Shown here piece by piece: positions 3,629 through 5,775 of a DNA stretch of 36,279 nt. Origin of the DNA: Candidatus Woesearchaeota archaeon (GTDB taxonomy: Archaea > Nanobdellota > Nanobdellia > SCGC-AAA011-G17 > JAGVZF01). Where the stretch lies: NCBI GenBank assembly GCA_018302785.1, contig JAGVZF010000015.1:1-36279 (forward strand). Direction: 5' to 3'. Made by a program: the position numbers and the translations under genes. How positions within the stretch are numbered: the first letter of the stretch is position 1; every line of letters begins with the position of its first letter. The notes below the pieces were generated by a model. The model was not told the DNA's origin. It ran no database searches and saw nothing but the letters and a program-made list of their open reading frames with translations.

Positions 3629-4336
3629 ATGGCCAGCATAACTAAAAACCAAAATTTAAGAATAAAAGAAGGAAGAACTGAGTTAACTACGACTCATCAA
3701 GGTCAAGATTTAACTTTTGTACATCCTTCTTATGGTCCTGATACTTATGCTAATGTTGGATCTCAAATAGAGCAAGCTGGTTTAATAAGGCCAACAATGT
3801 CACAAATTACTTCTTTAGCTCATACGTCATGTAATTCTAATGATAAATATAGTAAAGAAATACAAAAAATAATGAAAGATAATTGGCTTTGGGGATTTAC
3901 AGGAACTCTATATGTTCCAAATAAAGGAGCTTATATTCAAGAAGATCCTCAAATAAGAAACGGAATGCCGTTTATGGATGAATCAGATTTAGTTAGGAAA
4001 TTAGAAGCAAATGATCCTAATGTAAGATTTGTTCCTTTTGGCTTTAAAACAGAAGAAATGACTCCAATACAACTAGCAAATAATGATTATGTTAAAGCTT
4101 TAGTTGGAGAAGAAGGAGCAGAAAAACTAGCAGAAATATCAGATAAACATAGATATAAACCATATTTATACAGTTTTGAATCTGTAGATGAACCATTAAC
4201 AAGAGTTTCCGCTTTGAATTCCAATTGGAACTTAGATGACAGGCTTAATGTCAATGGCAACGATCGTGGCGACGACAGGAATGGTTTTTCGTTCGGGGTA
4301 AGTCGTACTGGCGAAGCCAGTCGCGTCGAAAAATAA
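3629..4336 (+). CDS. DGR target (variable) protein with C-terminal VR-encoded region
   Basis: 235 aa ORF; C-terminus ALNSNWNLDDRLNVNGNDRGDDRNGFSFGVS is encoded by a near-repeat of the downstream TR with adenine-specific differences; no obvious signal peptide. Confidence 0.88.
   Translation: MASITKNQNLRIKEGRTELTTTHQGQDLTFVHPSYGPDTYANVGSQIEQAGLIRPTMSQITSLAHTSCNSNDKYSKEIQKIMKDNWLWGFTGTLYVPNKGAYIQEDPQIRNGMPFMDESDLVRKLEANDPNVRFVPFGFKTEEMTPIQLANNDYVKALVGEEGAEKLAEISDKHRYKPYLYSFESVDEPLTRVSALNSNWNLDDRLNVNGNDRGDDRNGFSFGVSRTGEASRVEK
4207..4300 (+). repeat. DGR variable repeat (VR)
   Basis: 94 bp aligning without gaps to 4511-4604; 87/94 identical; all 7 mismatches at positions where the TR copy is A (6 A-to-G, 1 A-to-T). 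Confidence 0.93.
4307..4321 (+). other. Hairpin/cruciform immediately downstream of the VR
   Basis: ACTGGC-GAA-GCCAGT perfect 6-bp arms, 6 nt after the VR end; extendable by CG/CG with one bulged T (4304-4323). It contains GCGAAGC, a known unusually stable DNA mini-hairpin. Confidence 0.65.
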
Positions 4337-4369
4337 GCTTTATTAATAACTTATTCTTTTCAAATATGT

Positions 4370-4393
4370 CTTAGTAAGTTGCAACTAACTAAG
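4370..4393 (+). other. Inverted repeat between target gene and TR
   Basis: CTTAGTAAGTT-GC-AACTAACTAAG: 11-nt arms with one mismatch. Confidence 0.4.
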
Positions 4394-4510
4394 GCTACAT
4401 GCTCATTGATTGCGCTTGTAAGCCATAAAATTCAATCATAATATCTAGTAAGTTTTTGCTGAAAAATAAAATGATGGTGATTTACTTTTAATTAATGAGC
4501 TACATAACTG

Positions 4511-4604
4511 TTCCGCTTTGAATTCCAATTGGAACTTAGATGACAGGCTTAATGTCAATGGCAACAATCATGGCAACAACAGGAATGGTTATTCGTTCGG
4601 AATA
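4511..4604 (+). repeat. DGR template repeat (TR)
   Basis: Non-mutated partner of the VR, located between target gene and RT; AAC/AAT-rich core (GGCAACAATCATGGCAACAACAGGAATGGTTAT). Confidence 0.93.
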
Positions 4605-4628: not shown

Positions 4629-5775
4629 ATGAAAACTTACAATAATCTTTATTCTGAAATTGCTTCATTCCAAAATTTATTTTTAGCATATAACAAAGCT
4701 AGAAAAGGAAAAACAAGCTAGAAAAGGAAAAACAACAAGGAAATATGTAATAGATTTTGAAAAAGACTTATTAAATAACCTTCAGCAACTGAGGGCGGAA
4801 TTGTTAGATTATTCCTATAGGCCAAAACCACTAAAAACTTATATTATAAGAGATCCAAAAACAAGAAGAATTTCCAAATCTCATTTTAGAGATAGAATTG
4901 TGCATCATGCTATTTGTAATATTATAGAACCAATTTTTGATAAGTCATTTATATATGATTCTTACGCAAATAGAAAAGGTAAGGGCGCTTTAAAAGCATT
5001 ACAAAGACTTGATCAATTTAAAAGAAAAGTAAGCAGAAATGGAAAAATCAATGGTTGGTTTAATAATAACCAAATAAAAGGTTATTGTTTAAAAGCTGAT
5101 ATTAAACATTATTTTGAAGAAGTAAATCACAATATTTTGTTAAATGCAGTCAAAAAGAAAATAAAATGTAATAAAACTATAGGTCTAATAAAGAAAATTT
5201 TGACTAACTATGCTAGGGGGGGAATTCATGAAAAAGGAATGCCCCTAGGTAATTTAACATCACAGTTTTTCGCTAATATTTATCTAAATGAGTTAGATAA
5301 ATTTGTTAAGCATAAAATAAAAGCCAAATATTACCTAAGATATGTAGATGATTTTGTAATTCTGCATAATTCAAAAGAGCAATTAATAACATGGAAAGAA
5401 GAAATAGATATTTTTCTTAAGAATGAATTAAAATTAGAACTTCATCCAGATAAGTCAAGAATCATACCATTGTCTAAACCAATCCCATTTGTAGGTTTTA
5501 GAATATTTAATTACTTTAAATTATTAAAAAAATTTAATAGAAAAAATATTCAAAGAAAATTAAAAAAGCTTCATGACTTATTTTTAGAAAAAGAATTAAC
5601 TTATGATAAAATTTATGAGATATTACAAGGATCATTTGCCTACATGAAACAAGCAAATACATACAATTTAAGAAAGAAAATTTATTTTAAAATAGAAAAA
5701 GTCTTTTCAAAAGAAGTTTCAAGTTTAGAAGTAAATAAAACCATTAAGTACTTTAAAAAATTAAGTAAAAATTAA
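4629..5775 (+). pseudogene. DGR-type reverse transcriptase, frame interrupted by a 19-bp tandem duplication
   Basis: N-terminus MKTYNNLYSEIASFQNLFLAYNKARKGKT in frame 3 (stops at 4719-4721) continues as TRKYVIDFEKDLLNNLQQLRAELLDYSYRPKPLKTYIIRDPKTRRISKSHFRDRIVHHAICNIIEPIF... in frame 1. LGNLTSQ (5245-5265) matches the DGR RT [ILV]GxxxSQ motif; YVDD at 5341-5352. Confidence 0.9.
4696..4735 (+). repeat. Exact 19-bp tandem duplication (about 2.1 copies) inside the RT N-terminus
   Basis: AAGCTAGAAAAGGAAAAAC at 4696-4714 and again at 4715-4733, followed by AA; 19 = 3x6+1, so it shifts the frame by one. Confidence 0.95.

Follow-up and report, generated by a model that had tools for sequence, protein, structure and literature searches.

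Diversity-generating retroelements (DGRs), such as those of the Bordetella phage BPP-1 and of Nanoarchaeota (PMC4372165), have in common with the locus studied here a reverse transcriptase (RT) family nearest to the solved structure 8ub7, adenine-specific differences between a template repeat (TR) and a variable region (VR), a target gene, and the occurrence of several cassettes per genome, some of them devoid of RT. DGRs in which the RT was frameshifted but VR and TR stayed intact were noted earlier in DiGReF (PMC3521204) and in the Pseudoalteromonas prophage proACA1-A (PMC10612066). When we compared the latter with phage ACA1 (L248 and L249; OR438930.1 and OR438928.1, respectively), the DGR RT was found to have changed from A6 to A5, generating the frameshift in the prophage. 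An alternation between diversification and purifying selection in DGRs has been raised (PMC8144416), and how cells protect a useful variant from being overwritten by a hypermutating DGR is unsettled (Roux et al.). In the literature searched, where most subscription papers lay outside reach, no report of repeat tracts in DGR RTs was found.

A DGR whose RT is disrupted

The window (the whole stretch of 36,279 nucleotides analyzed here) contains a DPANN-archaeal DGR consisting of a target gene with VR, an RT-16 RNA, a TR and an RT (Table 1), and its near relatives are found in records labelled Nanoarchaeota, Woesearchaeota and Pacearchaeota. The RT family profile matched the DGR RT 8ub7 best among the solved structures (E 1.5e-61). 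VR resides inside the target gene and differs from TR at seven positions, all of which are adenines in TR (6 A>G and 1 A>T). Thus, the original prediction of a mutagenic retroelement was borne out by the RT profile, the TR/VR pair and the target gene. The cassette lacks an intact RT, which is required for activity in cis but not for family identity, and represents a DGR whose RT allele is broken. By its position, the RT-16 RNA of the window is part of the DGR RNA. The same RNA was detected in two other cassettes of the genome, on contigs C4 and C18, and in six further archaeal DGR loci; our data suggest that it forms the 5' portion of the template RNA of the DGR.

Table 1. Features of the DGR locus in the window
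Feature	Position	Strand	Remark
DGR target protein, 235 aa, VR near the C-terminus	3629-4336	+	no Pfam match
Variable region (VR), within the target gene	4207-4300	+	94-nt match to TR
RT-16 RNA (RF03019), directly upstream of TR	4369-4508	+	Rfam 99.8 bits, E 3.6e-15
Template repeat (TR)	4511-4604	+	
Truncated RT frame, 30 codons then TAG	4629-4721	+	agrees with the N-terminus conserved in the relatives' RTs
Exact 19-bp tandem duplication, 2.1 copies	4696-4735	+	shifts RT by +1
Rest of RT (RVT_1, YVDD intact), single frame to stop	4801-5775	+	PF00078, E 3.4e-25
In-frame G7 within the RT loop that immediately precedes GMPLGNLTSQ	5216-5222	+	site of poly-G/(GA)n in relatives

The RT begins with ATG at 4629 (MKTYNNLYSEIASFQNLFLAYNKARKGKTS) and meets a TAG at 4719-4721, the stop position given in the original prediction. 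The cause is AAGCTAGAAAAGGAAAAAC, which occupies 4696-4714 and, without any difference, 4715-4733, followed by the beginning of a third copy that reaches 4735. Downstream of the duplication, the RT frame resumes and stays open to 5775, and a single 19-bp copy would restore a continuous frame. As the N-terminus of the relatives' RTs reads uninterrupted (NLxxAxxKARKGKTxKxYVxxFE), the two-copy allele is regarded as disruptive. In the present assembly, the window RT would be off, with translation ending after codon 30. The first start codon in the resumed frame is TTG at 4801, from which a rescue by internal initiation had been proposed; we rejected this possibility as unlikely, because a start at this position would leave out some 53 conserved residues. 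The idea that the G7 tract compensates for the shift was also rejected, since a single frame runs on both sides of this tract. No second lesion was found in the rest of the RT.

Origin of the 19-bp duplication

The RT of the window may not be the only one available in the cell. The cassette on contig C4 carries an intact DGR RT without a loop tract (see below for the loop), and 18 of its 21 VR/TR mismatches are at A. A third cassette, on contig C18 (L005; G000:C18:12500-20000), adjoins a replication factor C-like gene and retains VR, TR and the RT-16 RNA but no RT; it possibly needs to be served in trans or is a fossil. Because the genome possesses both the intact C4 RT and the RT-less C18 cassette, the window RT may be dispensable, with its cassette served in trans and the RT free to decay. 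That the window RT is a pseudogene in the making, its cassette served by the C4 RT, is a tentative reading to which we give slightly less than even chances. The RT-16 RNA common to the three cassettes speaks for it, and recent inactivation, one of the options raised in the original prediction, fits the VR/TR differences being confined to adenines as well as the backup RT on another contig. On the other hand, the lack of a second lesion and the same seven adenine mismatches imply that any decay has only begun, and the tracts in the relatives are left unexplained. This reading is compatible with the explanation we prefer for the family, namely that its RTs are contingency genes with repeat tracts in a loop.

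The duplication could also be an artefact of a metagenome-assembled genome, since the source genome (0.95 Mb) is a fragmented assembly of 48 contigs with contamination of 5.97%. We consider this unlikely, as the 19-bp duplication is clean, internal and normally flanked, unlike a typical homopolymer or contig-end error. Even so, the result at the level of the family would be unaffected, because the tracts lie between two conserved halves of RT across many assemblies.

The original prediction further held that the repeat could act as an on/off control, one copy being gained or lost, and we weighed it as an evolved phase-variation switch. The repeat is indeed exact, back-to-back and near the RT start, and one copy gives a continuous frame. 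However, there are two copies only, and they lie within conserved coding residues. None of 2,000 base shuffles of the window RT produced a perfect tandem duplication whose unit measured 15-30 bp, and the window RT is alone among 203 RT genes (222 kb) in carrying one with a unit of at least 13 bp. No out-of-frame change in spacing at the RT N-terminus was detected in the 197 RTs scored, a count for which the window's own row was disregarded owing to its spurious frame. The repeat neither recurs nor is conserved at this site among the relatives. As no relative scored is out of frame there and comparable duplications are absent from the other RTs, the 19-bp repeat looks like a one-off mutation rather than an evolved switch, the latter being quite improbable, and the duplication is probably a recent, separate lesion. 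Its reversion by slippage would be possible. On/off control nevertheless gains strong support for the RT class as a whole, through poly-G and (GA)n tracts that lie mainly in the loop described below.

Repeat tracts in the loop of related RTs

RT matches were detected in 117 of the 380 genomes surveyed in the window's phylum and in 118 of the 384 Patescibacteria genomes. In the control phylum, that of a proteobacterium (L038/G773), matches were found in 17 of 399 genomes and, among the matches listed, all were in long open frames. Many RT matches end at one and the same residue just before GMPLGNLTSQ, where a disordered loop is occupied by poly-G or (GA)n and, in one case each, by C11 and (CT)n. 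Such a loop tract was present in 49 of the 200 RTs in which both sides of the loop were readable, a frequency that is approximate, as are the proportions of on and off frames, because sampling was non-uniform (every split RT listed for the archaea was included deliberately, as were 20 RTs of Patescibacteria, most of them split) and some Patescibacteria loops were only roughly anchored. All seven short tracts were in frame. Among the 42 long tracts, only eight were in frame, while 19 were at +1 and 15 at +2 (against equal phases, chi-square p=0.11). Of the 151 RTs without a loop tract, 148 were in frame (Fisher p=3e-23). The window RT bears a short, in-frame tract at this site, but its genome has 13 G7 sites in all, so that this tract taken alone is weak evidence.

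The tracts concentrate at this site. Within RT genes, 41 of the 47 long tracts fell at reference residues 180-209, the remaining six being split evenly between positions near 248 and near 312, and RT-flanking DNA contained such tracts at about fivefold lower density. In Patescibacteria, tracts were found at the same RT site, with (GA) up to 39 nt and in both phases. Of the 34 runs of at least G9 in 18 genomes, 19 were in DGR RTs, a share inflated by our having picked these genomes for a G-tract in RT; the background outside DGR RTs was about 15 in 20 Mb. In 10 of the 18 genomes, no run of at least G9 occurred outside DGR RTs, when the second run of G361, which lies in another frame-shifted DGR RT, is counted accordingly. 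Runs of (GA)6 were confined to RT in four of the five genomes having them. An RT protein scan of viral contigs recovered five relatives, none with tracts, and no viral contig matched the tract-plus-motif patterns.

On the FastTree phylogeny of 197 RTs, tract presence required 28 changes, compared with a mean of 42 when the labels were shuffled. Tract presence is partly inherited, yet it was gained or lost many times, at least as often as these changes, in both archaea and Patescibacteria. In a structure model of an in-frame G12 allele, the loop (181-200) was a low-confidence coil between two helices, which is consistent with a loop before GMPLGNLTSQ that tolerates changes in length.

Several side observations concern the sequences around the tracts and their copies. 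In diverged RTs (L026, L027, L086, L088, L093 and L176), the poly-G loop tracts are often preceded by TCG and followed by CGAAC or CGAAG, while CGCG or CGTG often comes directly after the (GA)n loop tracts. Two genomes, G387 (L178-L181) and G388 (L182-L184), possess several DGR RT copies in differing states, including G12, G13, AG14, G9 and tract-free. In Patescibacteria, many of the flank tracts fall no more than 50 nt upstream of the conserved start of the RT. Tracts of poly-G, (GT)n, (GA)n or (CT)n are frequent within about this distance (L185, L198, L199, L206, L212, L214, L215, L217, L221-L227 and L232). Candidate start codons lie before or after these tracts, so that effects on both coding and expression are possible.

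Long tracts are mostly out of frame, and the genes bearing them could simply be decaying. This is countered by the intact residues of the shifted RTs and by their fresh VR/TR differences. The archaeal frame-shifted RTs kept 94.7% of 87 invariant residues, equal to the single-frame RTs, and nearly all of them kept YxDD. Where a VR/TR pair could be detected at a frame-shifted locus, mismatches were almost exclusively at TR adenines (15/15 in L096, 17/17 in L088, 19/19 in L142 and 14/14 in L026), as found by a search that allowed at most three non-A mismatches per 45 nt and so favours fresh pairs; no pair was found for L034 and L140 in the stretch examined. Homopolymer tracts can cause polymerase slippage, but it is very unlikely that the loop tracts serve programmed ribosomal frameshifting or transcription slippage, by which out-of-frame genes would still yield RT. 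A single programmed shift should go with one preferred phase and one type of slippery sequence, while both phases occur, some alleles are in frame and (GA)n of up to 39 nt is as frequent as poly-G; such a shift was rejected on account of the mixed phases. An RT split into two subunits would be a further conceivable reading.

Altogether, the best explanation, to which we assign a probability of roughly three in four, combines an incidental 19-bp lesion in the window RT with RTs of the family serving as loop-tract contingency genes. Judging from the sequences, the DGR RTs of this family are most likely phase-variable. We propose that the length-tolerant loop before GMPLGNLTSQ would repeatedly gain poly-G or (GA)n, and that slipped-strand mispairing would alter the number of units, placing the catalytic half of RT in or out of frame. 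Lineages would then alternate between RT-ON, in which the target is rewritten at adenines, and RT-OFF, in which a working variant is kept. We infer the slippage itself, its reversibility and the benefit of the loop tracts. It also seems probable that repeat-tract switches of targeted hypermutation arose repeatedly and convergently in two domains, in the DGR RTs of both DPANN archaea and Patescibacteria. They would lie in the tolerant loop and, for the Patescibacteria, at the start of the RT as well, and through them the target protein would alternate at random between diversification and conservation. If true, such a switch would provide a simple mechanism for sparing useful variants, and many working DGR cassettes may be overlooked or misnamed in surveys that demand an uninterrupted RT frame.

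Comparison with known DGRs and contingency loci

Compared with the known DGRs (BPP-1; PMC4372165), the window has an RT-16 RNA between VR and TR, and no avd-like ORF was seen beside its RT. In the archaeal DGR loci tested (the window, L004, L005, L024, L026, L071, L088, L096 and L142), the RT-16 RNA is placed between VR and TR, its end adjoining TR. The relatives of the window differ from the known DGRs in having slippery tracts inside RT or at its start. The frameshifted DGR RTs described earlier (PMC3521204, PMC10612066) resemble the window in combining a truncated RT with intact VR and TR, but they were read as inactivation, with neither a recurring tract nor a recurring site.

The RT family shares with the simple-sequence-repeat (SSR) contingency loci of Neisseria (PMC5320596) and Campylobacter (PMC8437040) a homo- or dinucleotide tract in the coding region, here at a recurrent site, with on and off frames mixed and the gene otherwise intact. 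It differs from them in its hosts, which are DPANN archaea and Patescibacteria, and in that its switching in populations is here a proposal drawn from sequences. It differs also in the nature of the switch candidate: the gene encodes an enzyme of hypermutation, whereas those loci concern surface structures or methylation.
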